DNA of 64,000 bases from Polytrichum commune (taxonomy: Eukaryota; Streptophyta; Polytrichopsida; Polytrichales; Polytrichaceae), in contig OX485808.1 of NCBI GenBank assembly GCA_950295325.1, positions 42,428,527 through 42,492,526 of the forward strand, read 5' to 3'. The first letter of the stretch is position 1, and each line of letters opens with the position of its first letter. The translations under genes were made by a program, and so were the position numbers. Below, piece after piece: positions 20,140 through 44,721 of the stretch. The notes under the pieces are model-generated. The model searched no databases. It was not told the origin of the DNA and saw only the letters and a program-made list of their open reading frames with translations.

Positions 20140-20662
20140 ATTGGTAGGTTTATGGCAAGGCTTGTAGTTAAGAAAGATGCTTCAAAAATACATGTGTTGG
20201 GATGAGATTGGACTTTGTGCTCAATAAATAAGTTGGATATAACTTAGATACCCTTCTCAGTTCAAATAGGTAGATGTGAACGTTGATTTCAGGTCGAGCA
20301 AGGATGAATGAAAAGCATCTTCATCTCTAAACTATTGTCCCTTTTCGAAGGTGTTGTGCATGAGGGGTGATCAACTAATCATTTTAACAATGAACTTTTG
20401 TACTTGGTCCTCAACATCACTACCCAAGTTGAAAACCCGATCCATTATACTATATTATAATATAGAATGTACATTTCTTTAAGAAAAAACATTTGACCTT
20501 ATAAATGACATCAGAGGTTCCGAATTGGTCTAGAAGAAGTCACTTCATATGAACTAACCACAAACATATGGGGTGATGTTTTTACAATATCCTCTTTACC
20601 TTGGTAATAGCGGTGGGGCCCAGATCAAAGAGGTGGCGTCTAGGCTTGGCATCGATTCACTA
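19341..20662. other. intergenic stretch with a (GT)n microsatellite
   Basis: No gene recognised. A (TA)n(GT)n microsatellite occupies about 20097-20137. Near 19780-19960 there are two divergent copies of a TTTGAAATGGGCCAAAG / AATGAGCCAAAGTGTGG segment. Confidence 0.5.
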
Positions 20663-20926
20663 CACTGATTATCCCAATTAGTGTGTTTTACTATTTCGGA
20701 GTTACATAGTGCAATATCGTAAAAATCCATAAGGACCAGCGTTTCTTCTCTCTCTGCAATATCGTCTTACTCATAAATTCATTTTTTCCCCTAATGAGTG
20801 TTGCATAGGTTGTTTAGACATTATGAAACATAAATGACTTTGCATGGTAAAAACCACATTCTTGTTAAATAGTTATAGCACTGCGTAACTCCGAATAGTA
20901 ACACACACTAATTGGGATAATCAGTG
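20663..20926. mobile_element. TA-flanked MITE with about 55-bp inverted ends
   Basis: CACTGATTATCCCAATTAG on the left reappears inverted at the right end, and similarity continues through CGGAGTTAC(A/G)(T/C)AGTGC. TA flanks both sides (20661-20662, 20927-20928). The long inverted repeat makes a strong hairpin. No coding capacity. Confidence 0.85.
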
Positions 20927-21044
20927 TAGTGAAGTAAGTTAGAGGTTATTGTATGGTAAGACCCAATATAAAGGGCAATCTTTTGGAGTGCGTAATTATT
21001 GGTTACTACTAGATTTGTACAAGGTGCACATAGAATCACACTTA

Positions 21045-21176
21045 ACAACTAAATATGATACTTAGTGTCATATGGTATTTTATGTCAGTATGGTAACTTC
21101 TCGGATAACACTTCTTATGAATATGTGAACAAATATTGTCATGGATGATGAACGAGTTCATCCATTGGCCAAAACC
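21045..21176 (+). mobile_element. left part of a MITE split by the large transposon
   Basis: The sequence CATATGGTATTTTATG, GAACAAATATTGTCATGG and GTTCATC(C/T)(A/G)TTGGCCAAAACC is collinear with the uninterrupted MITE at 45424-45794 up to the transposon start. The MITE resumes at 39502 (CTACTTTCTCTTGTCA(A/G)CC) and is recognisable to about 39650, after which the right end is lost. Confidence 0.85.
21167..21176. other. target-site duplication, left copy
   Basis: GGCCAAAACC directly before the transposon, repeated at 39492-39501. The related unfilled site in the MITE at 45.5 kb has TTGGCCAAAACCCTAC with one copy. Ten bases is within the 8-11-bp range of Mutator-like elements. Confidence 0.9.
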
Positions 21177-21235
21177 GGGAAACTCAAGTATGTGAGCGTA
21201 GAGCGGAGAGCGGAGAGCGGAGATTGGAGAGCGGA
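21177..21235 (+). repeat. left terminal inverted repeat of the transposon
   Basis: GTATGTGAGCGTAGAGCGGA is followed by GAGCGGA units and then TTGGAGAGCGGA. Relative to the right end it has one extra 7-bp unit before TTGGAG. Further in, CCTATTTCCGTGGAAT (about 21269) matches CCTATTTCCGTGGGAT read inward from the right end, so subterminal sequence is shared too. Confidence 0.85.
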
Positions 21236-22177
21236 AAATTTAGATTTTGTTGGGTAATTTTAGGAGAAGCAGTGCCTATTTCCGTGGAATTAGAGATAGT
21301 TTGAATTCTATATTTGGAAAGGTACCCCCATTCCCGTGGACATAATAACCCAGAATTGTTTGAGAAACCAACGGATCCTATAGGCGTGGAAGATTGCATT
21401 TGTTATCAAACATCTTATAGTATATGTTTTCAAATGTATCATATTAAATTAGGGCTGACGTCACCAAATTGAAATCAAAATACCATACACAAAATATTTT
21501 ATTGGTCAACAAAATGTAGCCAACCTCAAGACTTACAAAAATGGGTAGTTAGTTAAAATAACTATATACTCTAGTTTAGGGCCATCTACACCCTATCTGC
21601 CGGGCATGTCCAATATGGGTAAAATGATCCAAAGAACATGCCATAAAACTCCGTCGCACCATAACAGCCTTCCAATTCAGTCCTTAGCTTAGCCAAAGAC
21701 CTCAAAGACAAATCCCCCAAGTCCAACCTTAGAATCCTCTTGGAAATTTTTGAGGTGACGTGCCGGCTCTTTGAGAACAACATGAATTTCAATTTAAAAA
21801 GTTTGACGAGGTTATGTTCGCGTGCCAAACAAAACTTCCAATTGCTATATAGCAATTGGGATTGGAAGACGGCCAATGTGATTAGTGTGCACAACCATAA
21901 AATAAACCATCCACACTAATAGAAAGTATGGTCCCCCTATAACTAAGATCTCACACTAAGAGCCGAGAGCTAGATTGTTTTGTGACTAGAAGTTAAGAGA
22001 TCCGAACGATGAAGAAAAAATAAAGAATGCAATGCGGGTTGACATATGAATATGAAATAATGGAGAGAAAGAATGAAACTTGCGCCGGATATCAAAAATA
22101 AAACCAACACACAACTTTTATTAAAGCCGGATAACAACAACAAACGGAGTTATAATCTCCAAAACCAAAATGATAAA
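21236..22177. other. left subterminal non-coding region of the transposon
   Basis: Between the inverted repeat and the stop codon of the ParB-methyltransferase gene. It includes the perfect palindrome at 21838-21859 and MITE-like CCACACTAATAG near 21910. I see no gene; 3' UTR and transposase-binding sequence are the likely content. Confidence 0.5.
21838..21859. repeat. perfect 22-bp palindrome
   Basis: CCAATTGCTAT followed by its exact reverse complement, with no spacer. It is unrelated in sequence to the array palindromes. It lies in the left subterminal part of the transposon, and its function is unknown. Confidence 0.8.
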
Positions 22178-25100
22178 CTAAGGGCTTGGAGAACATTCCC
22201 TATCACTCTCCTCACCCTCATTTGCTTCTAACAAGAAAAGATTTCGTGTTCCACGCGAGAAATGACGAACGCGAGGAGGAGATGGGGACTCCGCCTTCGC
22301 AAAACAATCCGCCATTGCACTAGCATACGGGGGAAGCTCAAACGGCTTCGGAGGACTTGAAAACATGTCTCGACGAATGACTGCGACCTCCGCTGGCTCT
22401 CTAAACACCCAAGCAAAAGGATTAGAAACATGATGACACTAGAAAATGAGAATTTGAAATCAAAGCAAACATGGCAAAATATAGAAAGCAAACTTACGCA
22501 CAAAGAAATCCGAATGCCCTCTTGGTCATATTTTGAGGAGGATCAAAGATAGATGTAGACGGTGCGGCAACTGAGCGAGATATACGCGCAGGCTGGGGAT
22601 CGCGCATGGGGAGTAGGAGTGAATTGAAAATGACGGGGTCACTCTCAAGGGCCACAATATGCCGCTCAAGGGAGCGACATGCTGTAATCGAACCACCTAA
22701 AGCAAAGAGAGGTAAAATGTTAGTATGAAAACTAGTCAAGGAAAAATAATGGAAAATTCAAAGTAAGGATGAAGTTGAAAAAGAAGGCGTACCTACACCA
22801 CACTGCCAGTCCATAATAACATCATTCTTGTCGGTGAGAGTAGCGAGAAGGATGGAAAAAAAAACAGGATGCTTCTCACGGGCACCTCGCCAAGGTACCC
22901 CATCACTGCGCATCGTCTGGCTCTTCTCATCGGTGAAGGTATTCAACCATCCATCTCGTTGGAGGTTGTAACCATACTCTTGTATGGCCTCCTCCCGCAC
23001 TCTAAGAACGGAGTTAACACGAACAAGAACTTTGATGTTGAACTTCCGAGTCTGCAACAATGAAAATAAAATTGAATTGAAATGAAATGGAATTGAAATT
23101 GAATTGAAATTGAAATGATAAGCAATACGGAAGGGGAAGAGAGGGAGACTTGCTTACCACTCCAGAGGGAACAACGGGAGATTGGAGGTCTAAATCATTC
23201 ATTCCAAACCAATCTTCCGCGACGTAGAAGTCATAAGTGTGTGCCCAATCGAAAATACTCCTAGAAACACTGGCACTCGCACAATGGGCAAGAACAAGGA
23301 CACCATGATCATAGAGGTTAGATTTCGCAAATGCAAAAAGACACTCATAGTATGATTCATGGAGCTTGTTCCAAGCAGGAACATCGGTGGAGATGTTCGG
23401 CACCGGCAAATTTTCGGGAATGTCGGCGAAGAGCAAATCGAGGCCCTTGTGAGTTGTAGTCGAGGTGTTCACACGGGAATGACCTGCCCCAACCTGCAAT
23501 TGAAACTTCATGAGAAAACAAGAAGGAAAGAAATAAACAAAGCAAAGGAAAAAAAATTGAGAATTGACGAAGGCAAGTATACAAACCTTGGCAATGAACT
23601 CTTGGATGCGGGTATATGCGGGGAGGGGACCTCCGGCAACCTCGGAATCCAGCATTAGTTGAACCATGTCCACATTTTCGATGAGGGTAAGCGTGTTAGT
23701 GGCATCCGAAGAGGTGGCACTGGTATCCAAGAGAGCGGCCTTCCTCTTGCGAGGCAAAGAGAGGAGAGAAGTGCCACTATGAGATGGAGTGGCAAGAGAT
23801 TGTGGATGAAATGCAGATGGAGTAACAGAAGGGGCAAGAGAGGGAGCAACGGAGGGAGCGATAGATGGACTGTGTGGAAGGGTGGGTGGCTCAACCGGGG
23901 TCTTAGAAGCAGACCGAGTGAGAATTTGGGAAGATGCTTGAGTGGCGGTCTTCTTTGCTCTGCCCTTTCTCCTTGGTGCCTTAGGAGGAGGAGGGGGAAG
24001 CTCAACGATGTCAGGGTCCTCCAAGGTAACAATGTTATTATCCAGAGCACTACCCACAAGGCTAGCAAACAAAGCCTTCTCTTCCCCGGGGACAAATCCT
24101 GCAGCACAATCCAAGTACCATCCACCACCCTGCAAGTGCAATTCGGAAAACTTGTTTGTTTGCGCGGTCGTATACACGCAGAGGCTAGAAAAAATATTCA
24201 CCCAGTCCGAGAGGTAGTCCGGCAAGGAAGATGAGGCCAATGCATTCTTCACAACCAATTCTCTCATGATATACCTACATGACAAAACAAGAATGTAAGA
24301 AAACCAACAAAACGAGCAAGAAATGACATTAAGGAGAGGTGCAAAGTGGAGGATAGATGTATTACCGATAGGCTACACGCTTGATAGCGAGAGCCCCCTC
24401 CTCGAACTCCAAGAGATTATCACCTTTGGCAAATGCGATGTCAGGCTTATCGCCGAGATAAGGCTTGAAGGCCTTGTCCCAAAGGACAATCCGCCAATGA
24501 TCAACGTACTCACGAGGGCGCAAGATAGTTTCTGATGCGTCCCAATCAATGTCGACGGAGAGGCTCTCCTCTAAGATCTCAATTTCAACCGCGACTTCTT
24601 TCTCCAACTGCAGAGAAGGAGATGATTAGATATGAGATAAATGGAATAGAGGAAAATGAAAATGAAGAAGGCCGAGGAATGGATTTACTTGAGCCCAGAA
24701 GGACGCCTTGTGTAGCCAGTCGTCCAAAGCCCTCTCCCTCATAGGCTTGTCGACGGGGAACTTGTTATCTAACCTTTCACGAAGGGGGGCGTTCCACCAG
24801 TGAAGCCACTTAGCTTTGAACGAAGCTTCGACCGGGCATGTGATAATTTTTTGCAATTTTTCAATTGTCATGTCCGTCGAAGAGAACTCATTAAAATGAC
24901 GGTCAATCTGTGCACAAAATAAAAATGATTTGAGTTCAAAAGAGTAATAGAATTGAAGAGTGATTTGGATGAATTGCGTTCAAGACTGATTTGAGTTCAA
25001 AAGAGTACCTCATGAAAGAAATCCTCTCCATTGTCAGGGTGTGCAACGGATATGTACTTCTCAAAAGAACGGGCCCGAATACTTTTGATTGTCCTCTCCT

Positions 25101-26378
25101 GGGCCTTGGTCATAACATTCCAAATCTCAGTGGCCGACCTCTCCGCAACGGGTGTGGTCTCACGGTAATGCCTCACTGCAAGGTCTGCTTGAGCCGAAAT
25201 GTCTCTCTGCAAGAAATGACCTTGTGAGTTCATATAATCGGTATGGAAATTATCTATATTGGAAGCTCTAAATGATTGAATGCATAAAACCATACCTTGT
25301 AAAGAAACTTAACGAACACATCCGCGGTCAAGGTGTACCAAGTTGGGCGACTCTCCTTTATCTTCTCGCATGCTTTGTAGTCAGATGGCGATATAAGATC
25401 CTTGAAGGTGGACAACTCTAACCTCCCAAAAGTGCGGATTCGAAGGAGCTTGGCCGGAATGTTTGCCTTGACATAATCATGCTCGGTTGACCTGAGAAAA
25501 AATATGTGAGGAACGTGAGCTGAAAAGAATGGAAAAGAATTGAAACAAAAATGAAAAATAAATGAAAAAAATGAATGAGCTTACCAACTAATGTCGCTCA
25601 TGGCATTGAGGAATATACCTGTGTATCCTCTAGGGTCAACAACAATGCAATCCACCGAGATATGCCAACTCTTGTCATCGGCGTGGTGGTTATTGATGTG
25701 TCTCCACCAAGCGGTGACACGATGATTGCCTTCCCAGACGAAGAACATCTTCCCGGCGAAATGTGCAAGATCCGGATCCTCCTTGAGCTTGGCGTCAAAT
25801 TCTGCGGAGGCCTCTTGCCAGAGAGGGCTCCAAGAGGCCATAATGCCAGGGGGAATGGGGAGGTCCACGGGAACGTCGTTGAAAGAAGACACGTAAAGAA
25901 CCCGATCTCCCTCTCGGTATCCCATTACAAATTCACATTCCAAGCGCTGCACCTCAACCTCACTGATAGGACGGACAAGAGGGAGGGCTCTCAAGCGGCA
26001 TAAAGGAATGGATAAGCGGGACTTACATGTTGGCTTAATCCGAAGGCGTTGGATAACACCAATGGAGTCCTCCTTTTGTGATTTCCGAAGCTCAAGCTCA
26101 CACACCACGGGATCCGTGTCGGCAACTGCTTGAACGGCATCTTCGCTCATTGCGAGAGCCTAACAAAAACACAAACAATAAAACCATGCTTAGAAAGCTA
26201 GAACTCAAAAAACTTGCTTAACAAATTATTCAACAACTATCCAACTCACCTCTACTTGTAATGGGCCCTGCGAATTGAGACTCTCAACCTGCACAGCTTC
26301 AACTTCAACCGCGGGGGCCGCAAGAACAACATCCTCTCCAGATTGGGGTTGCGATTGCGCAACCTGTGAAGAGTCCAT
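22178..26378 (-). CDS. ParB-like domain / DNA methyltransferase fusion protein of the transposon
   Basis: Eleven GT-AG exons on the - strand join without a frame break: 26250-26378, 25585-26159, 25296-25491, 25009-25206, 24689-24907, 24366-24607, 23587-24274, 23158-23493, 22793-23051, 22498-22696, 22178-22400; 1087 residues. Residues about 180-200 read FVWEGNHRVTAWW, the G-x-H-R helix start of ParB/sulfiredoxin-fold domains. A helical middle follows, then a basic PRRKGRAKK stretch and APSVAPS-type linker (about 600-680). Residues 766-1000 have a permuted N6/N4-methyltransferase order: LDLLFADIPEN (773-776, where the family has DPPY), a VLVLAHC strand, then DWQCGVGGSITACRSLERHIVALESDP (942-970), equivalent to DxFxGSGT...GRxxxGxExD. 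The degenerate DIPE motif may mean weak catalysis or DNA binding only. It may have extra 5' exons beyond the array (see findings). Confidence 0.85.
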
Positions 26379-26550
26379 ATCCTAAGAACATGGAGAAAAT
26401 GAGAATTTCACAAAGAAAAGTCAATAACTTCGTAACTATAAAGAAACAAATCCTCACAAAAACAATACAAGGCCGAGAGCAAACTACAAATGGAAATGGC
26501 CGAATGCTAAGTCAAGTGCTCAACTCTAGCACTAACCTACCTACGAATGA

Positions 26551-27208
26551 GAGGCCTCGGATCCGAGGCCTCTTTTCCTACCTCCTCCTTATGCACTACC
26601 CAAAAGAAAAAGGCCGAGAGAAATCTTATGTGAACATAGCAGTTTGACTTTTCAAGCACATACATTGTCTTCAAAATGAGGCCTCGGATCCGAGGCCTCT
26701 TCACAAACCTCCTACTCATGTAGTACCCAAAACAAGAAGGCCGAGAACAATCTTACACGAACATAACATTTTGATTTTTCTAGCATAAAATTGACACAAA
26801 CATGAGGCCTCGGATCCGAGGCCTCTTCCCAAAACACATACTTATTCACTTCCCAAAACAAGAAGGCCGAGAGGATTCGAAAATGAACATAAGATTTTCA
26901 TTTTTCAAGCACATACCTTGACACAAAAATGAGGCCTCGGATCCGAGGCCTCTTCACAAAGTACCTACTTATGCACTACCCAAAACAAGAGGGCCAAGCG
27001 CATTCAAAAATGAACATAACATTTTAACTTTTCATGCACATACCTTGACACAAAAATGAGGCCTCGGATCCGAGGCCTCTTCCGAATGCCCCTCCTTATG
27101 AAATACATACTACAGAAAATGGCCGAGAGAATTAAAAAATGAACCTAACATTTTCATTTTTCAAGCACACAACCTGACTCAAAAATGAGGCCTCGGATCC
27201 GAGGCCTC
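26551..27208. repeat. array block A: six sites at about 127 bp
   Basis: Sites begin at 26551, 26678, 26804, 26931, 27058 and 27187. Spacers share ACAAGAAGGCCGAGAG, CATTTTCATTTTTCAAGC and ACACAAAAATGAG. Block C repeats the same unit. Confidence 0.9.
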
Positions 27209-27264
27209 TTCCAAATGCCCCTCCTTGATGATTTTAAAACCTAACCAATTTACTTGTTACATGG

Positions 27265-27750
27265 CTCACGGGTGTTCACCCGTGAGGTTCACATTTGATG
27301 ATGTTCCAGGGGAGGTCACTCCATTGCCAAGTTGCATCACCAAAATGGGTCAAAATTTTCTCAAATTTTTTTGGGACGTAGATATACATGATATCTATTA
27401 CGGAGTAAAATATCATGACCAAATTTGATGACCATATTTTTCTAGAAAACATACCATTTCTACCTAGAATGACGCAGAATTCAACTAAAACAATTACTAG
27501 AAAAAATGAAGATGACAAAAAATTTCAAAAAAATATACAAAAGATATAATCAATAGTTATGAATATAGAGAAAAAAAATCATAATTTTTAAAAATATTTC
27601 ACATGGAGACATCTCCCCGTGATGATGCTAAATCCTACCCAAGTTACCTGTTACATGGCCCACGGGTGTTCACCCGTGGGGCACACATTTGATGATGTTA
27701 AAACCTAACCAAATTACTTGTTACATGGCCCACGGGTGTTCACCCGTGGG
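27265..27750. repeat. three CACGGGTG hairpin units within the array
   Basis: Inverted repeats with a TT loop lie at 27265-27286, 27659-27680 and 27729-27750, and a fourth at 30846-30867. Each is preceded by TACTTGTTACATGGC. The first has CTC...GAG in place of CCC...GGG, a matched change on both arms. These units replace the usual palindrome in this part of the array. Confidence 0.85.
27306..27621 (-). mobile_element. hAT-type MITE inserted in the array
   Basis: The termini CCAGGGGAGGTCACTCCATTG and ...CATCTCCCCGTG match the MITEs at 41582-41977 and 58216-58626. It is flanked by an 8-bp duplication with one mismatch (ATGATGTT 27298-27305, ATGATGCT 27622-27629). It is inserted in a repeat unit whose intact relative follows at about 27690. 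Confidence 0.85.
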
Positions 27751-27872
27751 GCACAAGGCAGAGAGCAAGGAACCAAAAAAGCAGGAAAGTTGACATTCTA
27801 TTAGTTTGAGAAATCAAGAACCTCACCTCTCTCAAAACCCTACCTTTCACATACTCAAACTTACACAAATAG

Positions 27873-28485
27873 GAGGCTTCGGATCCGAGGCCTCTTCCCC
27901 TAGCTGGTTCTTATGCACTACAGAAAACAAGACAAGACCGAGAGCAATTGATGTGCACATAACATTTTGATTTTTCAAGCACAAACCTACCCGAAATAAG
28001 AGGCCTCGGATCCGAGGCCTCTTCCTATGGCTCCCACTTATGCACTACACAATAGAAGAAATGGCCGATAGCAAGGAATCAAGAAAGCAAGAAAGTTGAC
28101 ATTCCATTAGTTTGAGAAATCAAGAACCTCGCCTCTCTCAAAACCCTACCTCTCACATACTCAAACTTACACAAATATGAGGCCTCGGATCCGAGGCCTC
28201 TTCCCCTAGCTGCTTCTTATGCACTACACAAAACAAGACAAGGCCGAGAGCAATTGATGTGCAAATAACATTTTGATTTTTAAAGCACAAACCTACCCAC
28301 AAATAAGAGGCCTCGGATCCGAGGCCTCTTCCTATGGCTCCCACTTATGCACTACACAATAGAAGAAATGGCCGATAGCAAGGAATCAAGAAAGCAAGAA
28401 AGTTGACATTCCATTAGTTTGAGAAATCAAGAACCTCGCCTCTCTCAAAACCCTACCTCTCACATACTCAAACTTACACAAACAA
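27873..28485. repeat. array block B: two 307-bp higher-order units
   Basis: Sites at 27873, 28000, 28179 and 28307 alternate 127/179/128/179 bp. The long spacer holds AAGAAAGCAAGAAAGTTGAC and CTCTCTCAAAACCCTACC, exactly as in block E. Confidence 0.9.
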
Positions 28486-29270
28486 GAGGCCTCGGATCCG
28501 AGGCCTCTTCACAAACCTCCTACTCATGTAGTACCCAAAACAAGAAGGCCGAGAGTAATCTTACACGAACATAACATTTTGATTTTTCTTAAATAAAATT
28601 GACTCAAACATGAGGCCTGGGATCCGAGGCCTCTTCCCAAAACACATACTTATTCACTACCCAAAACAAGAAGGCCAAGAGCATTCAAAAATGAACATGA
28701 GATTTTCATTTTTCAAGCACATACCTTGACACAAAAATGAGGCCTCGGATCCGAGGCGTCTTCACAAAGTACCTACTTATGCACTACCCAAAACAAGAAG
28801 GCCAAGAGCATTCAAAAATGAACATAAGATTTTCATTTTTCAAGCACATACCTTGACACAAAAATGAGGCCTCGGATCCGAGGCCTCTTCACAAAGTACC
28901 TACTTATGCACTACCCAAAACAAGAAGGCCAAGAGCATTCAAAAATGAACATAAGATTTTCATTTTTCAAGCACATACCTTGACACAAAAATGAGGCCTC
29001 GGATCCGAGGCCTCTTCACAAAGTACCTACTTATGCACTACCCAAAACAAGAAGGCCAAGAGCATTCAAAAATGAACATAAGATTTTCATTTTTCAAGCA
29101 CATACCTTGACACAAAAATGAGGCCTCGGATCCGAGGCCTCTTCCGAATGCCCCTCCTTATGAAATACATACTACAGAAAATGGCCGAGAGAATTCAAAA
29201 ATGAACCTAACATTTTGATTTTTCAAGCACAAACCTTGACACAAAAAAGAGGCCTCGGATCCGAGGCCTC
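28486..29270. repeat. array block C: seven sites at about 127 bp
   Basis: Sites begin at 28486, 28612, 28739, 28866, 28993, 29120 and 29249. The spacers from 28761 to 29119 are almost identical, pointing to recent unit-by-unit duplication. Confidence 0.9.
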
Positions 29271-30765
29271 TTCCCAAAGCTCCTACTTATGCACTTAACA
29301 AAACACATTTCCCCCCCCCCCGCAGCTTCAGACCTCCATATCTTCCACGTGTGGTCTCCAAATCTAACAATCAACCACTCTATCGTCATCTACGTGAAAT
29401 GTAGATGCCGATGGACACCTCACTTGCCCCATTTGGGCAAAAATCAAGGAAGTTATGCCTGTTTAAACATTCGCAGTCCCGGGAGCCACTCCCAGGGGAC
29501 TGCTGATCGAGGGCACTAAAAGGAGGCCTCGGATCCGAGGCCTCATTTTCAAACTAGTGTACATACTCAAAAACAAGCAAAGTGCCTCATTCATACAAGC
29601 TATACGTTGAATCAAAAAACCTCAAGTGGCCTCGGCTGAGAGGCCTCGGATCCGAGGGCTCACACACAAAGTAATTTACGTACTCCAAACCAACCATAGT
29701 GCCTCATCCGTACACTAGTTTTGGAACACATAAAAGAGGCCTCGGATCCGAGGCCTCTTCTCCTAGCTTCTACATATGCACTCAACAAAACACATTTCCC
29801 CCCCCCGGCAGCTTCAGACCTCCATATCTTCCACGTGTGGTCTCCGAATCTAACAATCAACCACTCTATCGTCATCTACGTGAAATGTAGATGCCGATGG
29901 ACACCTCACTTGCCCCATTTGGGCAAAAATCAAGGAAGTTATGCCTGTTTGAACATTCGGAGTCCCGGGAGCCACTCCCTGGGGACTGCTGATCGAGGGC
30001 ACTAAAAGGAGGCCTCGGATCCGAGGCCTCATTTTCAAACTAGTTTACATACTCAAAAACAAGCAAAGTGCCTCATTCATACAAGCTATACGTTGAATCA
30101 AAAAACCTCAAGTGGCCTCGGCCGAGAGGCCTCCGATCCGAGGCCTTACACACAAACTAGTTTACATACTCAAAACCAACCAAAGTGCCTCTTCCGTACA
30201 CTTGTTTTGGAACACATAAGAGAGGCCTCGGATCTGAGGCCTCATTCACAAACTAGTTTACATACTCAAAACAAACCAAAGTGCCTCATCCGTACACATG
30301 TTTTGGAACACATAAAAGAGGCCTCGGATCCGAGGCCTCATTCACAAACTAGTTTACATCCTCAAAAACAAGCAAAGTGCCTCATTCATACAAGTTATAC
30401 TTTGAATCAAAAAACCTCAAGTGGCCTCGGCCGAGAGGCCTCGGATCCGAGGCCTTACACACAAACTAGTTTACATACTCAAAACCAACCAAAGTGCCTC
30501 TTCCGTACACTTGTTTTGGAACACATAAAAGAGGCCTCGGATCCGAGGCCTCATTCACAAACTAGTTTACATACTCAAAACCAACCAAAGTGCCTCTTCT
30601 CTACACTTGTTTTGGAACACATAAAAGAGGCCTCGGATCCGAGGCCTCATTCACAAACTAGTTTACATCCTCAAAAACAAGCAAAGTGCCTCATTCATAC
30701 AAGTTATACTTTGAATCAAAAAACCTCAAGTGGCCTCGGCCGAGAAGCCTCGGATCCGAGGCCTC
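29249..30765. repeat. array block D: 96/117-bp units and a duplicated 487-bp block
   Basis: Spacings 274, 117, 96 recur as 273, 117, 96 (29249-29735 and 29736-30222), so a 487-bp block is duplicated; 96- and 117-bp units follow to 30744. Each 274-bp spacer holds CCACGTGTGG and an inverted repeat (GCAGTCCC 29473-29480 with GGGACTGC 29496-29503). The 117-bp spacers add a second small palindrome, CTCGGCCGAG. The units are multiples of three, which keeps one + frame open from about 30093 to 30905; I do not consider it a gene. Confidence 0.85.
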
Positions 30766-30989
30766 ACACACAAACTAGTTTACATACTCAGAACCAACCA
30801 AAGTGCCTCATAAAGACATGCCTAACCAAGTTACTTGTTACATGGCCCACGGGCGTTCGCCTGTGGGGCACAAGGCAGAGAGCAAGGAATCAAAAATGGA
30901 AGTAAGTTGACATTCCATTAGTTTGAGAAATCAAGAACCTCGCCTCTCTCAAAACCCTACCTCTCACATACTCAAACTTACACAAATAT

Positions 30990-33160
30990 GAGGCCTCGGA
31001 TCCGAGGCCTCTTGCCCTAGCTCGTTCTTGTGCACTACACAAAACAAGACAAGGCCGAGAGCAATTGATGTGCACATAACATTTTGATTTTTCAAGCACA
31101 AACCTACCCACAAATAAGAGGCCTCGGATCCGAGGCCTCTTCCTATGGCTCCCACTTATGCACTACACAATAGAAGAAATGGCCGAGAGCAAGGAATCAA
31201 GAAAGCAAGAAAGTTGACATTCCATTAGTTTGAGAAATCAAGAACCTCGCCTCTCTCAAAACCCTACCTCTCACATACTCAAACTTACACAAATAAGAGG
31301 CCTCGGATCCGAGGCCTCTTCCCCTAGCTCCTTCTTATGCACTACACAAAACGAGACAAGGCCGAGAGCAATCGATGTGGACAAAACATTTTGATTTTTC
31401 AAGCACAAACCTACCCACAAATAAGAGGCCTCGGATCCGAGGCCTCTTCCTATGGCTCCCACTTATGCACTACACAATAGAAGAAATGGCCGAGAGCAAG
31501 GAATCAAGAAAGCAAGAAAGTTGACATTCTATTAGTTTGAGAAATCAAGAACCTCGCCTCTCTCAAAACCCTACCTCTCACATACTCAAACTTACACAAA
31601 TAAGAGGCCTCGGATCCGAGGCCTCTTCCCCTAGCTCCTTCTTATGCACTACACAAAACGAGACAAGGCCGAGAGCAATCGATGTGGACAAAACATTTTG
31701 ATTTTTCAAGCACAAACCTACCCACAAATAAGAGGCCTCGGATCCGAGGCCTCTTCCTATGGCTCCCACTTATGCACTACACAATAGAAGAAATGGCCGA
31801 GAGCAAGGAATCAAGAAAGCAAGAAAGTTGACATTCCATTAGTTTGAGAAATCAAGAACCTCGCCTCTCTCAAAACCCTACCTCTCACATACTCAAACTT
31901 ACACAAATAAGAGGCCTCGGATCCGAGGCCTCTTCCCCTAGCTCCTTCTTATGCACTACACAAAACGAGACAAGGCCGAGAGCAATCGATGTGGACAAAA
32001 CATTTTGATTTTTCAAGCACAAACCTACCCACAAATAAGAGGCCTCGGATCCGAGGCCTCTTCCTATGGCTCCCACTTATGCACTACACAATAGAAGAAA
32101 TGGCCGAGAGCAAGGAATCAAGAAAGCAAGAAAGTTGACATTCCATTAGTTTGAGAAATCAAGAACCTCGCCTCTCTCAAAACCCTACCTCTCACATACT
32201 CAAACTTACACAAATAAGAGGCCTCGGATCCGAGGCCTCTTCCCCTAGCTCCTTCTTATGCACTACACAAAACGAGACAAGGCCGAGAGCAATCGATGTG
32301 GACAAAACATTTTGATTTTTCAAGCACAAACCTACCCACAAATAAGAGGCCTCGGATCTGAGGCCTCTTCCTATGGCTCCCACTTATGCACTACACAATA
32401 GAAGAAATGGCCGAGAGCAAGGAATCAAGAAAGCAAGAAAGTTGACATTCCATTAGTTTGAGAAATCAAGAACCTCACCTCTCTCAAAACCCTACCTCTC
32501 ACATACTCAAACTTACACAAATAAGAGGCCTCGGATCCGAGGCCTCTTCCCCTAGCTCCTTCTTATGCACTACACAAAACAAGACAAGGCCGAGAGCAAT
32601 TGATGTGCACATAACATTTTGATTTTTCAAGCACAAACCTACCCACAAATAAGAGGCCTCGGATCCGAGGCCTCTTCCTATGGCTCCCACTTATGCACTA
32701 CACAATAGAAGAAATGGCCGAGAGCAAGGAATCAAGAAAGCAAGAAAGTTGACATTCCATTAGTTTGAGAAATCAAGAACCTCGCCTCTCTCAAAACCCT
32801 ACCTCTCACATACTCAAACTTACACAAATAAGAGGCCTCGGATCCGAGGCCTCTTCCCCTAGCTCCTTCTTATGCACTACACAAAACGAGACAAGGCCGA
32901 GAGCAATCGATGTGGACAAAACATTTTGATTTTTCAAGCACAAACCTACCCACAAATAAGAGGCCTCGGATCCGAGGCCTCTTCCTATGGCTCCCACTTA
33001 TGCACTACACAATAGAAGAAATGGCCGAGAGCAAGGAATCAAGAAAGCAAGAAAGTTGACATTCTATTAGGTTGAGAAATCAAGAACCTCACCTCCCTCA
33101 AAACCCTACCTCTCACATACTCAAACTTACACAAATATGAGGCCTCGGATCCGAGGCCTC
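30990..33160. repeat. array block E: homogenised 307-bp higher-order repeat
   Basis: Fifteen sites alternate 128 and 179 bp (30990, 31118, 31297, 31425 ... 32960, 33139), giving about seven 307-bp units. Neighbouring units differ at only a few bases, for example the AATCGATGTGGAC / AATTGATGTGCAC variants, and the latter type reappears at 32595 inside the run, as expected from gene conversion or unequal exchange. Confidence 0.95.
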
Positions 33161-33326
33161 TTGCCCTAGCTCGTTCTTGTGCACTACACAAAACGAGACA
33201 AGGCCGAGAGCAACATGATGTGCACATAACCTTTTGATTTTTCAAGCACAAACATACCTTTCCTAACATGTTCCTAAACCCAAATCAAGACAAGGCCGAA
33301 AGCAAGTCAAGCTGATATTCCAAATA

Positions 33327-34347
33327 CTATGAGAAATCAAGGTGATAGAAAGCAAAAACGTTGGCGAACATAGCTTGGCCGAGATCCCGACACCTTACCA
33401 GAATTTGGAGTATGCCCTCCACTGAAGCCCCTATATTGGCGCCACTATCTTCCGAGGTCCCGTCCTCTGTCGGCGATATTGGAGTGCTTCTCGAATCTCC
33501 GAGGTTTACTTGCGCCATTCCTCTCCCGCGGCCACGCCCTCGCCTTGATGTTTGTTGTGTTCCGCCCGCCTTGCTTCGCAGAAATCTTGAAGCAGGGGTC
33601 ACAACATCCACACTTAGGGTTTCTGCGCATGGGTCTCCTCCTTCAGCTCTTTCGCGGCCTCCCAACAAATTTGATTTCAGATCTTCCTTTGCCGCTTTCC
33701 TCTTGGACGCCTTCATTTTTTCTCTTGCTTGAATCGTTGGTTGTCCCGACATCGGTTCTCGCTCTTCTAACGCCTTCTCAATTTGTTGTGCTACCTCCTT
33801 GTTGTCTTCTTCATAGATATTTCCACTATCTCCACTCCCCCCCTCTTCCTATATTTAAGATAAAACAATGTTTATAACAATGATGACAAACCATAATATC
33901 TAAAAGAAAAGTTGTTTCACAGTTGAATATGTTCTACCATTTTCATTATGTGCTCAAACAACTGAATATATGGAGAACCCGAAGAATACGTACGACACTT
34001 GTAGAGTTTGTCTCTTCGCGTGAGTCCTCTTGGATGCTGTCGTTTCCCAACTCCTCCACTTCTGCCATTGGTTGCGCTTTACTTCCGTCCGCCTCTTCTA
34101 CAATCGGTGATAAATGAAAAGGCCGAATCCCACAGTCTAACCTCCACGAAGGTTTCCGCAGGTCCTTAATGCTTTGGCTCAAATCCTCGGGCGTCCCACG
34201 GCCCTCAATTGGCGCTTTCCTTGCCTGTGACTTTTGTGTCCTCACTGTCTTTCTCTTCTTATCAGTGTAATGTGTAGACGATCGCCTCCTCTTCTTTTTC
34301 TTAGATGGTTCCGTTGTCGGAGGTTGTGAATTGCCTATTTCCTTCAT
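33327..34347 (-). CDS. basic, low-complexity transposon protein (or N-terminal exons of ParB-methyltransferase)
   Basis: Exon 33994-34347 (118 codons, ATG at 34347) splices in phase 0 (GTC|GTACGT, ATATAG|GAAGAG) to an exon starting at 33848. If read through, the frame stops at 33327 and gives 291 residues. Visible features: a nuclear-localisation-like SKKKKRRRSS near the N-terminus, a KKRKTVR stretch, acidic segments, and an RRGRGRGRG tract. No domain is recognised. At 33399 a good donor (CTG|GTAAGG) sits in phase 0, so the second exon could instead continue across the palindrome array into the ParB-methyltransferase gene. It is divergently arranged with the transposase gene. Confidence 0.65.
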
Positions 34348-34666
34348 GTGTTCAACCCTCCCGCAATTCAGACCTATTCGCTCTATTTCCTTTCCACAAC
34401 CTCACCACATCAAACTCACACATTGGAAAGAAAGTGAGCAATCGCATTCTTCTCAGTATATAATTGCAATACCTCCCGATGGGAGGCGCGCTTTACTATC
34501 TGACAACCATCTTTGTAATTAGGGGTATCTTTTTTTAGGATGCCTGACAGTTTTGTCTCCTTCCTGATATTCATGCGTATTTGTTTATAACTTCATCGTC
34601 ATCACCATTCTCCTTCTCTATGCATCTTTGCATCTTTGTTCCTTCACGTTTGCTTTCTCTGCCTTC
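34348..34666. promoter_or_regulatory. probable bidirectional promoter of the transposon
   Basis: A 319-bp gap separates the divergent start codons of the basic-protein gene (34347, -) and the transposase (34667, +). It contains AGTATATAATTG (about 34457), which could serve as a TATA box. Assigned by position; no transcription start is known. Confidence 0.5.
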
Positions 34667-37600
34667 ATGGCTTCCACCTCAATTCTTCCTCCCGTCTCTG
34701 AGATGGCCGAACTTCGTTCACATGGCATCGGGGTCCCTATTATATTCCCCATTGGTGCACAAGGTATTGTTGTTGTCTCGGAGCTTCATCTTAGCATTAG
34801 GTTCTCTTTGAAAGCTAGTACAATATGGGTAGAGCGTGAGATCTACCATCCTGATACTGGATTGCTCGTTCATACCTTCCATGAGACCTCCAAGATAACT
34901 GACAATGGCAATGTAGTGTGGGAGCTTGGCGCGGGAAAGTATAGGGTTTGTGGCTGGCCAGATTCTCAGATGGAAGTGTCAACAGAAATCCTTCCTCCTC
35001 TTCGATCATCCACTGTTGCCTTTAGCACACCCCCCGTAATAAGCGTCAAGACCGAGCCTGGTGTAGACAACGTTATAGACTTGTCTGATTCTTCGAGTGA
35101 AGATGTACCAGTGTATAAGGTTGCTGTCCATGATTCCCCTCATTTGTTTCCCTTTGCATCCTACATAACGCCTTCTCCATCTAGCTCTGTCCCTTCAACT
35201 CCTTCGGTCCCTACGTCTAAACCTCCTCAAACTATTGTTCAATGTCTTCGTCGTCTTGGCTCTATGCCCGGTAGTAAGAACGTCCTCAAGAAAATAGATT
35301 ACGATAAAATCAAAATCCAAGAAGTTAATCACCTTCCCCCTCGTTTCGATGGCACCCAGTTATTTGTCCTCCCTGCAGCAGAAGTCTCTTCATCTCAAAC
35401 CAGGGCCAAGTCGTTGGACGGCATGGACAAGCAATATGATGGCCATGTTTGGACTAAGACTCAAACCACCAACATTACAAACGACGTTGGCCTTGCATTT
35501 CGTTCCTCTACCTGTGTTGGCCATCTCCAATGCCAAAACCCGAGTTGTGATTACCTTCAACGCGCCCATCGTACCTCTAAGGTCAATGACACAGAATTTG
35601 AAGGTTTCACTAAAGATCCTTTCCGTCTCTCTGGCATTGTGCCATCCGGATCTACTCTTGTCTGCAGGATCTGTAAAGAGCCTCCCAAATGCATTGCACT
35701 ATGCGAGGCCAAAATCTTCTACGTCCATGGGAAGGAGTCATCCCAAAGAGCCTGCATTCATCTCGGTTCTCATCAACATCCAGTGAAGGTTGGAGACTGC
35801 AGAGACAGTCGGAAGCGTATCAATGCACTTCTTGAGGAGCACGTTGAACGTACGCCTCAAGCCACCCACAGCAAGATCGTCCTTGAAGCTAGCAAGGACA
35901 TTGTTGGTGAGTTTCTCCTTTCTGGCGATAATGACACACACCGTCTCTTCTCTTTAAAAGAGCTTGAACCTGTTTTTGAGAGCTGTAGAGAGTTGAATTC
36001 CCCAAACCTTCGCTCTAAGGTTACCTCTTTCAAATATTTGCGGAGGTTTGGTGTTATGGATGGCATCGCAAAGCTCCGAGGCGTTAGCAATTGGGCCTAC
36101 GTCCAACGGAACCAATTCCCAGGACAAGGTGACGATACAGACAAGGTGTTCGTCTTCAAGATGTCGGAGGTTGGTCCTGGAAGTGGAGTGGATTTGGTTC
36201 GTCGGATGCAACCGGGTGGGGACCTGGAGAGCGCGTGGATGATGTCCGATCACGTGAAGCGGGTCAAAGGGTGGACCACCATGGCCGCTCATGTGTACAA
36301 TGGGACTTATCAACGGGTCATGACCATTTCATGTTGTGATTTCCAATCGGAGGATAAGGATGCCCAAGTTCTCTTCTGGCAGAACCTCAACCACGTCATG
36401 GCCCGACACGGTATCCCACATCCAAACTTTATAGGCTTCATGGCGGACAGTGCCCAAGCCAATTGGAACGCTGTTCGCATTGTATATGGTTCGGGGGATC
36501 CCAAAGTTCCAATGGAGGGTCGTGAGCGCACTTGTTTTTTCCATTGGAAACAATCGCTCGAAAAACATACGAAATCGTATATAAAGCATGAGTTACAAGA
36601 CCAACATAGACATCTTTGCCTTCAATATCGAAATGCGTCATCTATGGAAGAGGCTGAGACTAGGTACCTAGCTATCAAGGCTTGGTGGGCGTCATCGAAT
36701 TGTACAAGTGAGGACGGTCTCAAGCATCTTCAGCTCTGGCTTGCTTTTTGGCACTTCCGCTACCTTCAATGGGGTGGTTTCATGGAACTGGTACATCTCC
36801 TTCATAATTCATTATTGGTTTTTCTTGGATTCGATTTCCTCTCTCTGTACATTTATATTAATACTTGATTTCTCCAATCAGGAAAAGGTTTTAACCCAAG
36901 ACCAATTGGCCGAGATGCCGTCGTGCAATCTTGCGGAGTCCGTCCACAACAAATGGCTTCAAGCCTCCGGCAACAAGGGTGGAGATCTATACGTGGCTAC
37001 GGTTGACGACTACATTCGCGCCTTCTTACAAGTTGTTGCATACTACCAGTTCCTTAAAGGTGGAATTGGCGGAGATGGTCCAAGCAAAGAAGAACTAAAG
37101 CTCAGGGGTGCTCAACGTCGAGCTCAGCGTACTGGCGACCCCACAGTGTTGCAGAAGGTCTTGCTTGACATGTCCGGTGGGGAAGAATTTTGCACTCGCG
37201 ATCCACACCTTGAGGGCGCCGAGGTGTTTGGATCGCAGAAGCGAAGATCAGACACTCCAATTGGTGATGATGGCGAGACCCACCGCCCCGATACCGTGAA
37301 CTTCTCTCGCCCTCCCCCCGGTAAGCGTGTCACTCGATCTCAACCAGAAACACTACCCACTATCATTGAGGAGTCTTCCCCCTCTGTACAAGAGGTTCAA
37401 GTGCCTTCACCTGCAGGACTTGGTTTCCAGCGTGTCACTGCCGTACAAGAAACCAAAGTAGATGTCTCTCTTTGGCATATTGCCCGCATACCCTATACGT
37501 CTGGGAAGTCTTGTTGGGCTAATCATGCGGGCACGAAGAAGAAGTGCACCGCAAGAATCGTCACTAATAATAAGAGCGTCCCTGCGCCGACCTACACCGG

Positions 37601-38339
37601 TATGTGGCATCATTACAAACTCCAATCTATGAAGCGCACGGACTTTGTCTTTTGCCCCGACGACATTGAGCGTTGCGTGAAGGGCCCTCGTCGGAAATGG
37701 GTCATGCCGTTCTCTGCTCATGACCAGAAGCCTCCTATTCCCCCAATCTGGCCCGTGAAGATTGGTACCAACCTCACCCGCTCGGATATCTTCGCCCTTG
37801 AGAACGCAGGTTTTCAACTCCCACCAAAGGAGCGCATCACACCGACTCAACTCTTCACCAACTCTGCTCCCCCGCTGGATATGTCTGGAATCCGTGTTCC
37901 AGAAAACCCCGACATGATCCCTCCGACAAGATTGTCCAAGCTTGTTCGGCGATCCAGTAGCGCACCTTCGGCAAAGCAGAGGCAGATGGTGGCCTCTGCT
38001 GAAGCTATGCATGGTACCGTTATGAAGTTAACTATGATCCCTCAACCGGGATTTGGTTGCATTATCACACTGCAGTCCAAATCAGAACCCCAACCACCGA
38101 TCTACCAAGTGACAGTCAGTTCTCTTCCAGAGTGCAACTGCGCATTTTTCTTGGATATGATTTCCAAGTTCAGCCGCAAACGAAATTCTTATTTGAATTG
38201 TAAGCATTTGTATTACATTTTCATCAAGGTTTCTAATTTGGATGCGGAAGTGAATTTGTTCATTCACGCCCCGACATTTAGCTTCAACGAAGTCAAACTC
38301 ATCCTCGAAGGGGGTCTTTTGACAAAGTCTACTTCTTAG
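34667..38339 (+). CDS. Mutator-like (MULE) DDE transposase
   Basis: Two exons, 34667-36790 and 36882-38339, join in phase 0 over a 91-bp intron (CTG|GTACAT, AATCAG|GAAAAG): 1193 residues. The opening ATG is the first in frame; the extension upstream lacks one. In order: an N-terminal region ending in VKTEP (127-131) and VIDLSDSSSED (136-146), which look like a SUMO-acceptor site next to a SUMO-interacting motif; a Cys/His cluster (C283, C289, C294, C333, C336, C342, C346, C363 and HLGSHQH) resembling WRKY/GCM/FLYWCH-type DNA-binding fingers of MULE proteins; an RNase-H-like core with GFMADSAQANW (Asp593) and the MULE hallmark RTCFFHW (C623-x2-H626); and a C-terminal SWIM-type zinc motif (CNC ... 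CKH, about 1125-1150). First Asp and final Glu of the triad are not fixed with certainty. It would cut and join the element's ends in the nucleus. Confidence 0.88.
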
Positions 38340-38500
38340 GATTTATCTCAGCCTAGCAGTACTTTGGGCTATGATATATGTGTCCATTTCTGGACCTCTT
38401 GTGAAGCAATAATTGATTGATATAATAAAGGTATAATCTCAATGATTATTTTTATTTGCTTCAAAATTTTGTATTACAATGCTTCCTATGTCTATCAACT

Positions 38501-38968
38501 CTATTTCCGTTTTGCATACTTCTTAGATGATTGCGAGGGAGGTGGACCCGGTCGAAGCAAATCCATATAAGAAATTGTCTTATCTCTCTTTCGATCCTTC
38601 AGCGGAAGATGATGCGGCGTCATTCCTCTCATCCGTTCGCGAAATGAAAGAGACTTCGAAGATTCCCCTTCCACCTTCACCTCCTCCTCCGTTTCGTTCG
38701 ATTTGTCTTCATCTAAATCAACATCCTTCTCCGGCACATCTTCCTGCCTTTTTTCCTTTTTCTCATATTGTTTTTGCTCCTCCTGCACCCTCCACCTCCA
38801 TGCTTGTGTAGACTGCGAAAATGGAGTCAGCTCGTAGTCATCACTACTTTGATTTCCAGCAGCAAACTCAAATTCCGGCGATGGATTAAATGGAATATGA
38901 GGATCTCCTAGACTTCTAATTTCCTTCTCCCATCCTAATCCAGCAAACATGTCTCTCTCATCTCCCAT
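38501..38968 (-). CDS. small charged protein of the transposon, function unknown
   Basis: A single open frame of 155 codons starting at an ATG (38968) and converging on the transposase gene, with 161 bp between the two stops. Composition is strongly charged: QEEQKQYEKKEKRQED, DEDKSNETEEEVKVEG, then a basic end SSKKYAKRK that could be a nuclear signal. A coiled coil is likely in the middle. No family is recognised. Its place inside the inverted repeats and its intact frame make an accessory transposition protein plausible, but that is inference. An extension to a TTG at 38989 is possible but less likely. Confidence 0.65.
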   Translation of the reverse strand: MGDERDMFAGLGWEKEIRSLGDPHIPFNPSPEFEFAAGNQSSDDYELTPFSQSTQAWRWRVQEEQKQYEKKEKRQEDVPEKDVDLDEDKSNETEEEVKVEGESSKSLSFRERMRGMTPHHLPLKDRKRDKTISYMDLLRPGPPPSQSSKKYAKRK

Positions 38969-39422
38969 TGTGTGCAACTGTATATACAATTATGTTGGGT
39001 ATGAGTCCAATTTATAATCTATTCGGCCACAAACGATAATTGCTAAAGTCCAAGCTATAGAATAGACTCACATATAAGACAAAGAGAAAAGTGATGAATA
39101 AAAACCAAGCAAGTTTATTATTTTGATTCCTTTGTATATTGATTGACTCATTCTTCAATTATACCAATCTCAAAAAATCCATTTTCATTGATTTTTCTTG
39201 TAGTCATCATTGGTTTTAATAATTCAACCACCTCACGGTTTCCAAACTAAATGAGACCATTTCAAATTCAGGGTTTTTATTTTATTTTATGACCTATACA
39301 TCCCACGGAAATAGGTCCAATTTTTTTACTATTATTGTCAAATTCTGGAATATTCTTGGTATATTCTTGGCTATTTTGGAATATCCTAATTTTAGTCTGA
39401 CAAGTTTACTATTTTTATTTCC
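38969..39422. other. right subterminal non-coding region of the transposon
   Basis: Presumed promoter and leader of the small charged protein, then AT-rich sequence with ATATTCTTGG repeated at about 39350 and 39361. It shares the CCTATTTCCGTGGGAT block (reverse strand, about 39300) with the left end. Confidence 0.5.
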
Positions 39423-39491
39423 TCTACGCTCTCCGCTCTCCGCTCTCCAAATCTCCGCTCTCCGCTCTACGCTCACATACAAGTGTCGTCC
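39423..39491 (-). repeat. right terminal inverted repeat of the transposon
   Basis: Reverse complement of the left end, with GAGCGGA units on both sides of an ATTTGGAG block. The last 12 bases match the left terminus only partly. Confidence 0.85.
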
Positions 39492-39501
39492 GGCCAAAAC
39501 C
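39492..39501. other. target-site duplication, right copy
   Basis: GGCCAAAACC, identical to 21167-21176, after which the interrupted MITE resumes. Confidence 0.9.
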
Positions 39502-41581: not shown

Positions 41582-41977
41582 CACGGGGAGGTCACCACGT
41601 GCAGACAACGTTTGTTATCCCTATATTACGTGCCATAAATAATTTTAAATTTTATGATATTTTTCCACATATACATAATCATTGATAGTATATTTGTATA
41701 TTTTTTTGAATTTTTTCGTCATCTTCATTTTTTAGTAAATTTTTTAGTTCAATTTTGCGTCATTCTAGTTAGAAACAATATTTTTATTTTTAAAAATAAT
41801 CAAATTTTGTTTTTATTTGTTATTGTGTAATAGGGACCGTGTATATCTACTCATGGGAAAAAAATTTGATAAAATTTTAACCCATTTTGGTGATGTTTTA
41901 TGTAAAAAGTAGGATTTTTTACATGTAAAGTGTTTGCACGTAGTTGTTCAACTTTACAATGGAGTGACCTCCCCGTG
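41582..41977 (+). mobile_element. hAT-type MITE with perfect 8-bp target duplication
   Basis: Starts CACGGGGAGGTCACC and ends GGAGTGACCTCCCCGTG. It is flanked by TTCTCTTG on both sides (41574-41581, 41978-41985). The AT-rich interior is collinear with 58216-58626. An 8-bp duplication with CA-GGG-like ends points to the hAT superfamily. No coding capacity. Confidence 0.9.
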
Positions 41978-44330: not shown

Positions 44331-44514
44331 TCAATTTTAGCTTAATGGAAGCGAAAATGTGTCAAAAGCATCTACCGCATTAAGAGACGAGCATCTTGTA
44401 CTCCGAGGTAACTTAGCGCAACTTTGTCCGGAACGGCTTGATCACCTTTGCTACATGCAAAATTAGAAGTTGGCCAATATATGTGTAATTAAAGTGCATT
44501 GAAGCCCCAAACTA

Positions 44515-44721
44515 CACAAAATATGATATTTAGTGTTTGGAGTTACATGTTCCTATATCTTTTCATTCTTAATGTATTTTTTTACCAAGTAAAGGTGCTA
44601 ATGATCTATAGTCTCCAAACAACCAATTCAACCATGGTTGGTAAAAAATGAGATGCATAGTAGACATTTATAATATTGCGTAATTCCAAATAGTAAGTAA
44701 CACTAAATATCATATTTTGTG
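44515..44721. mobile_element. TA-flanked MITE, 207 bp
   Basis: The ends CACAAAATATGATATTTAGTG and CACTAAATATCATATTTTGTG are inverted repeats flanked by TA. The interior shares GGAGTTAC and TTACCAAGTAAAG with the copies at 50919-51135 and 58080-58710. Confidence 0.85.

Follow-up and report, generated by a model that had tools for sequence, protein, structure and literature searches.

A ParB-fold gene and its palindrome array in a Mutator-type transposon of Polytrichum commune: a candidate transposon-encoded, family-specific array binder

A gene with a ParB-like domain beside a cluster of palindromes, in a 64,000-nucleotide stretch of Polytrichum commune contig OX485808.1 (hereafter the window), raises the question of what such a protein does there and whether the palindromes are its targets. 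The first-pass annotation had proposed a self-recognition system made up of a ParB-methyltransferase and its own palindromic sites. The juxtaposition is real: a ParB-fold gene and 43 palindromes lie together within a Mutator-type transposon of 18315 bp (18.3 kb; 21177..39491), whose ends were set by comparison with a second copy of 12578 bp in which homology ends at the same bases; earlier termini (near 21192, with a 4-bp duplication) were dropped, as the second copy placed the ends elsewhere. The same ten bases, GGCCAAAACC, stand at the left (21167..21176) and right (39492..39501) ends as a target-site duplication, and ACTCACTCCC does so on either side of the second copy. In these two copies, the only two with both ends in hand, the 10-bp duplication is perfect and the 22-bp terminal inverted repeat imperfect. 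GAGCGGA heptads mark the left terminal inverted repeat (21177..21235, plus strand) and CTCTCCG heptads the right one (39422..39491, minus strand). The element thus combines a target-site duplication in the 8-11 bp range with terminal inverted repeats, as expected of the Mutator-like (MULE) superfamily. The portions of the literature covered by our search hold no description of such an element.

Two divergent main genes occupy the transposon, one encoding the transposase and the other a ParB-like/methyltransferase-like protein; a third, charged reading frame of 162 aa (38501..38989, minus strand) is matched at the equivalent position of one related copy (L037) by a frame 85% identical. The transposase gene (34667..38339, plus strand; exons 34667-36790 and 36882-38339) encodes 1193 aa and has 57 public relatives. 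The features sought in it were a DDE triad with CxxH between the second D and E, and a SWIM zinc finger: in an alignment of 18 sequences D528 and D594 are invariant and C623 and H626 nearly so, and visual inspection picked out the E as well as a CxCx(n)CxH finger. Comparison of the transposase with Pfam gave no match, and a scan of viral contigs with it yielded 79 stretches fitting the pattern, with 0 confirmed.

The second gene (22178..26378, minus strand) was modeled with 11 exons encoding 1087 aa, using GT-AG junctions and free of stops, and spliced alignments follow it in seven related copies, over all or almost all of its length in four (L037, L039, L040, L042) and over part of it in three more. 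Two probable 5' exons (33399..34347, minus strand) lie beyond the array, toward the transposase, identified by an in-frame junction and by coding similarity in related copies; the GT donor position is shared in all five loci, counting the window, where the second 5' exon was located. The ~7-kb stretch holding the array is most likely an intron of this gene. The anatomy resembles that of VANDALs, in which tandem-repeat targets lie inside an accessory-gene intron and near the transposase.

One exon (25585..26159, minus strand) encodes a ParB/sulfiredoxin-fold domain with 157 public relatives at E <= 0.001. Its structural model (pLDDT 85.7; 36.6 when folded from a single sequence) matches ParB, Noc, PadC and KorB best, followed by a serine kinase and Srx, at a Foldseek E of 0.037, with none at E <= 0.001. 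Within its EGNHR motif, N142 and H143 are invariant and G141 and R144 nearly invariant among 61 sequences, and the motif resembles the superfamily's GxxR nucleotide motif; the predicted alpha/beta nucleotide-binding fold with a GxxR-type motif places the domain in the ParB/sulfiredoxin fold superfamily. Purifying selection acts on this exon, with dN/dS of 0.07-0.11 in six of ten comparisons, the exceptions being one close pair (F37/F43, 0.84) and three saturated comparisons. The 1087-aa protein matches no Pfam family at E <= 1, and a Pfam search with relatives of the ParB domain led nowhere. Comparing a profile of the middle domain with the PDB gave no credible match (one chance match, E 2.1) and no recognizable DNA-binding (HTH) domain. 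None of the 7991 candidates scored in a search with the full-length protein reached E <= 0.001, probably because intron-less predictions fragment the gene.

The array itself (26551..33160) has commonest spacings of 179, 128, 127, 96 and 117 and the palindrome core CCTCGGATCCGAGG; exact matches to a 22-mer number 1,903 in the 408-Mb genome, against 0 for the reversed control. It is broken by a palindrome-free stretch (27220..27760), perhaps a nested insertion, with related inverted sequence at 41693-41895. A search of phage sequences with part of the array gave 6 records, the best at E 0.2. Further gene clades carry different palindromes, of the CTCTCGGnnCCGAGAG type or CCCACGGATCCGTGGG; all three classes have in common the inner core CGG..CCG (one half is imperfect in L036) and differ in their outer bases, and period, spacer and copy number vary from family to family.

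The association of gene and array, which had been suggested as a check, held throughout. Palindromes adjoin the ParB-like gene, upstream, in all of the best 30 copies of the gene, and the same is true of 13/13 additional chosen loci (two with just 3 and 4 sites); at each of the 43 gene loci examined, the ParB-fold gene is thus accompanied by palindromes of a single class. When palindrome-class and clade labels were assigned by the analyst and then compared, palindrome class matched ParB clade in 14/14 loci but transposase clade in only 9/12; all 150 ParB rows were used in pairing ParB with transposase. The mismatches (F36 and F38/F54) represent two reciprocal swaps, the only independent ones with sequenced arrays, and in both the palindrome accompanies the ParB gene. 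The pairing also brought up, besides L036, 11 pairs with a clade-2-like ParB exon no more than 15 kb away from a clade-1-like transposase, all 12 of which may go back to a single event. Self-recognition predicts that palindromes should follow the ParB clade and not that of the transposase, and this part of the original proposal stands. With the palindromes taken as presumptive targets, all 14 loci show the joint divergence of an accessory protein and its tandem repeats seen in VANC-type systems. The main caveat is physical linkage: an array within or next to the ParB gene could be carried along by that alone.

That caveat is the core of one alternative, in which unequal exchange expands passive tandem repeats that hitch-hike with the neighboring gene and have no dedicated binder, or are bound by a host factor. 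Hitch-hiking is expected of an array so placed, and the variation in period, spacer and copy number fits it as well; however, spacers, periods and outer bases change among genes that differ at up to 44% of residues, yet the inner CGG..CCG core and the twofold symmetry last, and outside CpGs family-1 palindromes vary less (13/3204) than spacers (169/15093), although these comparisons are partly biased, since sites were picked by core match and the copies are related. Another count over these copies, in which one locus seems to have been misoriented, shows little difference (75/3888 vs 376/15468). We consider passive repeats unlikely. It is improbable, in turn, that the transposase binds the palindromes as internal synapsis sites: transposases commonly bind repeated sites, and the distance from the array to the transposase start codon is about 1.5 kb, but palindrome class and transposase clade conflict in 3/12 loci, through two independent swaps in opposite directions, and the termini have their own GAGCGGA heptads, unrelated to the palindromes. 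Because of the swaps the transposase was rejected as array binder. Pairing of the ends for transposition, another of the functions first suggested, is unlikely from the anatomy, since the palindromes lie in the interior and separate repeats mark the ends. A further alternative is a system acting like ParB-parS, with the protein loading at the palindromes as an NTP-gated clamp, spreading, and bridging element copies. The ranking of CTP-binding ParB ahead of Noc, PadC and KorB among structural matches, the EGNHR motif and the clustering of the palindromes all point that way, and yet we regard it as rather doubtful.

The part of the original proposal that failed is modification, in which the methyltransferase would methylate the palindromes (GGATCC/AGGCCT) and so mark the element. 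The methyltransferase-like exons (22498..23493, minus strand) do contain a putative motif I region, DWQCGVG, and an N6/N4 methyltransferase can be recognized by its SAM-loop half, which aligns to DpnA at E 0.0014; PF01555 is matched by 2/5 members (best E 1.6e-4), the window's own member reaching E 0.12 and 12.7 bits vs a cut-off of 26.7. However, motif IV reads D/N-[IV]-P-[ED] in all seven copies readable there (DIPE, as in the window, DVPE, NVPE or DVPD, within ADIPEN, ADVPEN, ANVPEN or VDVPDN), and neither DPPY nor any form of the catalytic [DNS]PP[YFW] occurs in them; nor is there a common target, GGATCC and AGGCCT both being missing from CTCTCGGnnCCGAGAG cores. CpG transitions in family-1 palindromes (15/712) are not fewer than in spacers (9/474) or in exon 2 and elsewhere (82/6458; p 0.08 vs the last) and therefore leave no footprint of lasting hypomethylation; by these counts, palindrome CpGs decay as methylated CpGs do. 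Methylation of the array by the element's own enzyme was rejected for want of the catalytic motif, a true modification system is very improbable, and the domain probably serves as a scaffold devoid of catalysis or binds SAM.

The reading we prefer is that the second gene encodes a family-specific DNA-binding protein that recognizes the palindrome array of its own transposon, which the sequence comparisons make likely. The protein, probably dimeric, would sit on the twofold-symmetric palindrome and would also bind, in trans, the arrays that sister copies carry. More tentatively, and by analogy, such binding may keep the intergenic region of the divergent pair open to transcription despite host silencing, as VANC does on VANDAL elements, for which sequence-specific binding and a trans-acting loss of DNA methylation are the defining traits. 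On balance, we favor the explanation as a whole, a transposon-encoded, family-specific array binder with VANC-like action and an unrelated ParB/pseudo-methyltransferase build. Weighing against it are the linkage of array and gene, the small number of swaps, the failure to recognize an HTH domain, and the CpG counts given above. A bolder version, which we think has little chance of being right, is a parS-like system built by a transposon, in which a nucleotide-gated ParB-fold clamp joined to a dead methyltransferase loads, spreads, and shields or clusters sister copies, protein and sites co-evolving so that each family recognizes only itself. If binding is confirmed, transposon self-recognition through a co-evolving protein and repeat targets would have a second example, one using a fold of bacterial partition type unrelated to the first; and the genome, with its many families and reciprocal transposase/array swaps, holds a natural experiment that makes cognate specificity directly testable.

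Comparison with known systems shows both likeness and difference. Like the beta-class N6/N4 DNA methyltransferases DpnA and CcrM, the element's domain has a motif IV-like stretch N-terminal of the SAM loop, and its SAM-loop half aligns to DpnA; unlike them it has lost DPPY in seven of seven copies read, and has DWQCGxG (NWQCGVG in L037) in place of the canonical DPFxGSGTT. With the ParB-parS systems of ParB, Noc and KorB it shares the predicted fold of the N-terminal nucleotide domain and clustered palindromic sites; it differs in belonging, as a transposon, to a genome whose genes are spliced, in having no HTH identified, and in its far more numerous, family-specific sites. En/Spm TnpA is likewise a transposon-encoded regulator that binds repeated sites of its own element, but it belongs to another superfamily, and its sites are subterminal, near the ends, and non-palindromic. 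From the Arabidopsis Mutator-type VANDALs the present element differs in that its protein combines a ParB/Srx fold with a degenerate methyltransferase and lacks a VANC domain, as follows from the empty Pfam result, which excludes the VANC/DUF1985 family at that threshold (E <= 1), and in that its sites are long palindromes, whereas the VANC21 motif, in the available text, has 9 bases arrayed in a single orientation (PMC5735166). The same text places VANC targets, as tandem repeats, in VANC and VANB introns and upstream of VANA, and has them diverge together with VANC (PMC5735166). As far as the available texts describe it, the likeness extends to an accessory gene next to a Mutator-type transposase, repeats in accessory-gene introns and upstream of the transposase gene, and joint divergence of motifs and protein (PMC5735166; PMC10398659).

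The ends of the transposon were placed at window positions 21177-39491 (18315 bp) by comparison with a second copy of 12578 bp that spans L037 and L051, two of the related genomic stretches compared with the window. Homology between the copies ends at GGGAAACTCAAG on the left and GTCGTCC on the right, GAGCGGA heptads are present in the transposon ends, and a perfect 10-bp duplication brackets each copy (GGCCAAAACC and ACTCACTCCC), a target duplication length usual for Mutator-type elements. The transposase gene model (34667-38339, plus strand) encodes 1193 aa and has 57 public relatives; the residues conserved in it (D, D, C and H) are compatible with a MULE-type transposase. Since no Pfam model matches this protein, inspection and the duplications are the grounds for that name. 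Past this gene lies a third reading frame (38501-38989, minus strand), charged and conserved, of 162 aa, with an 85% identical counterpart in the second copy (L037:7548-8033). The window also holds two MITE-like short stretches (20656-20933 and 44510-44726) with near-perfect inverted repeats of 28-40 bp whose arms lie 161-198 bp apart, and a 152-aa ORF (5583-6041) that we take to resemble a cysteine-rich PAN/Apple-type protein.

The divergent ParB-like/methyltransferase-like gene is modelled as 11 minus-strand exons (26378 to 22178) that are stop-free when joined and encode 1087 aa, for which a Pfam search matched no family; the predicted structure covers the ParB exon alone (25585..26159, minus strand) and not the whole spliced protein. 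Two further minus-strand exons, modelled from sequence rather than transcripts and with many alternative splice choices possible between them, lie across the array from these 11 (34347-33994 and 33848-33399). The donor of the second can be spliced in frame to an acceptor immediately before the ATG at 26378, across a predicted intron of 7017 bp that would hold the entire array; a GT donor is found at the equivalent position in 5 of 5 loci where this exon was found, the window counted. Allowing up to two mismatches to CCTCGGATCCGAGG, the array comprises 43 sites, 38 of them exact, all within 26551-33160 and none in the rest of the window. Inside it, 27220-27760 is without array palindromes, carries three copies of a different palindrome (core ACGGGTGTTCACCCGT) and is partly related, in inverted orientation, to 41693-41895 outside the element; it is probably a nested small element.

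Across the genome searched (407.8 Mb, 64 contigs) there are 1903 exact 22-mers of family 1, the window's palindrome type, and none of the reversed control. Among 50 family-1 places listed on one contig, 49 fall into three clusters and have a scored ParB exon no more than 10 kb away; a solitary exact palindrome at C1:13839475-13839496 has none within that distance. The exon search scored 150 of 1274 candidates, 50 at identities of at least 92%, 18 at 71-91% and 82 at 68% or less. The 30 best copies, the window counted, each have 5 to 8 core sites within 1.5 kb upstream, and 13 of 13 further 10-kb stretches, hand-picked to span the identity bands rather than drawn at random, have upstream sites of a single class (lowest strict counts 3 in L054, 4 in L044 and 7 in L040). 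The co-occurrence of gene and array, which the first-pass annotation had named as a test, is thus seen at 43 of 43 loci examined (30 best and 13 chosen, of the 150 scored).

Three palindrome classes were distinguished: CCTCGGnnCCGAGG in the window, L037, L038, L042, L043 and L054; the CTCTCGGnnCCGAGAG type in L035, L040, L041 and L052, with variants in L036 (one half imperfect) and L053 (outermost position mostly G or other bases); and CCCACGGATCCGTGGG in L039 and L044. Strict matches to a class other than its own number zero in each of the 14 loci, and the commonest array periods vary (64, 85, 118, 127-130, 139, 170 and 201). Exact third-class 22-mers number 84 in the genome and are clustered, against 0 for the reversed control; the class-3 loci also hold two copies each of a second repeated palindrome, TAGTGTTGGAAACACTA (L039:6308 and 7292; L044:6307 and 7292). 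In the comparison of core with flank, core conservation is inflated because sites were preselected by core match.

The ParB clades are window/37/38/42/43/54, 35/36/40/41/52/53 and 39/44, and the transposase clades, for the 12 loci with a transposase start found (41 and 43 from about 120-130 residues), are window/36/37/42/43, 35/38/41/53/54 and 39/44. Locus 36 thus combines a clade-2 ParB gene with a clade-1 transposase, and loci 38 and 54, one subfamily with ParB 99% alike, show the reverse. At all three swapped loci the palindrome matches the ParB gene, and overall its class agrees with the ParB clade in 14/14 and with the transposase clade in 9/12, as a comparison of labels assigned by the analyst. 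FastTree support is 0.996 for ParB class 1, 0.899 for classes 1 and 3 versus class 2, 0.998 for the 38/54 transposases with 35/41/53, and 1.000 for 36 with 37/43; the locus 42 transposase is weakly placed (0.317) and is a mosaic, 70% and then 94% identical to the window. The swap argument is weakened by linkage, because the array sits within or next to the ParB gene. The transposase search gave 63 places once two of its 64 rows, which cover one place, were merged. At 43 of these places a scored ParB exon lies in divergent orientation no farther than 15 kb away, and at 50 no farther than 32 kb; the 20 that lack a partner at the shorter distance may be paired with exons beyond the 150 scored rows, or with none. 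Mixed pairs, with transposase at 87-91% and ParB exon at 62-65%, number 12 within 15 kb and 14 within 32 kb, locus 36 being the one with a sequenced array, and may derive from a single swap. Between families the C-terminal part of transposase exon 1 is far more similar than the N-terminal part (L042:5111-7088, L036, L037), pointing to recombination or gene conversion inside that gene.

The first-pass annotation had also likened the methyltransferase beside its palindromes to a modification system. The SAM-loop stretch does resemble DpnA (profile E 0.0014), CcrM (0.0021) and a PHROG methyltransferase (0.0018), two of five members match PF01555, the better at E 1.6e-4 (the window's member reaches just 0.12), and the domain is 52-87% identical to the window's across four other copies. 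The catalytic motif of active enzymes is DPPY; in the window and six other readable copies (L035 yielded no sequence there) this position reads ADIPEN, ADVPEN, ANVPEN or VDVPDN. With DPPY replaced in all seven, N6/N4 chemistry has probably been lost in the family, and a modification system is not supported.

Non-CpG cells off the majority are rarer in palindromes (13/3204) than in spacers (169/15093; Fisher p 7e-5, 30 best copies, overstated because the copies are related); an earlier count that took in every position, and in which one locus was apparently misoriented, gave little difference (75/3888 versus 376/15468). Palindrome CpGs show transitions at 15/712, compared with 9/2136 at other palindrome C/G (p 1e-4), 9/474 at spacer CpGs and 82/6458 (p 0.08) at CpGs from exon 2 and other places, and therefore decay like methylated CpGs, with no sign in these counts of an array held free of 5mC over the copies' lifetime. 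This speaks against lasting protection but not against transient activation.

We consider it likely that the transposon encodes an array-binding protein with family-specific recognition. That such a protein would act in trans, countering silencing or activating both divergent genes, is a more tentative step, to which we give somewhat less than even chances. The closest described system is the Arabidopsis anti-silencing protein VANC with its VANDAL transposons, of which the element is not a member because its protein has no Pfam match. VANC21 targets are tandem repeats in the VANC21 and VANB21 introns and upstream of VANA21 (PMC5735166), and VANC protein and motif co-diverge (PMC5735166; PMC10398659); the element resembles VANC/VANDAL in both its anatomy and this co-divergence.
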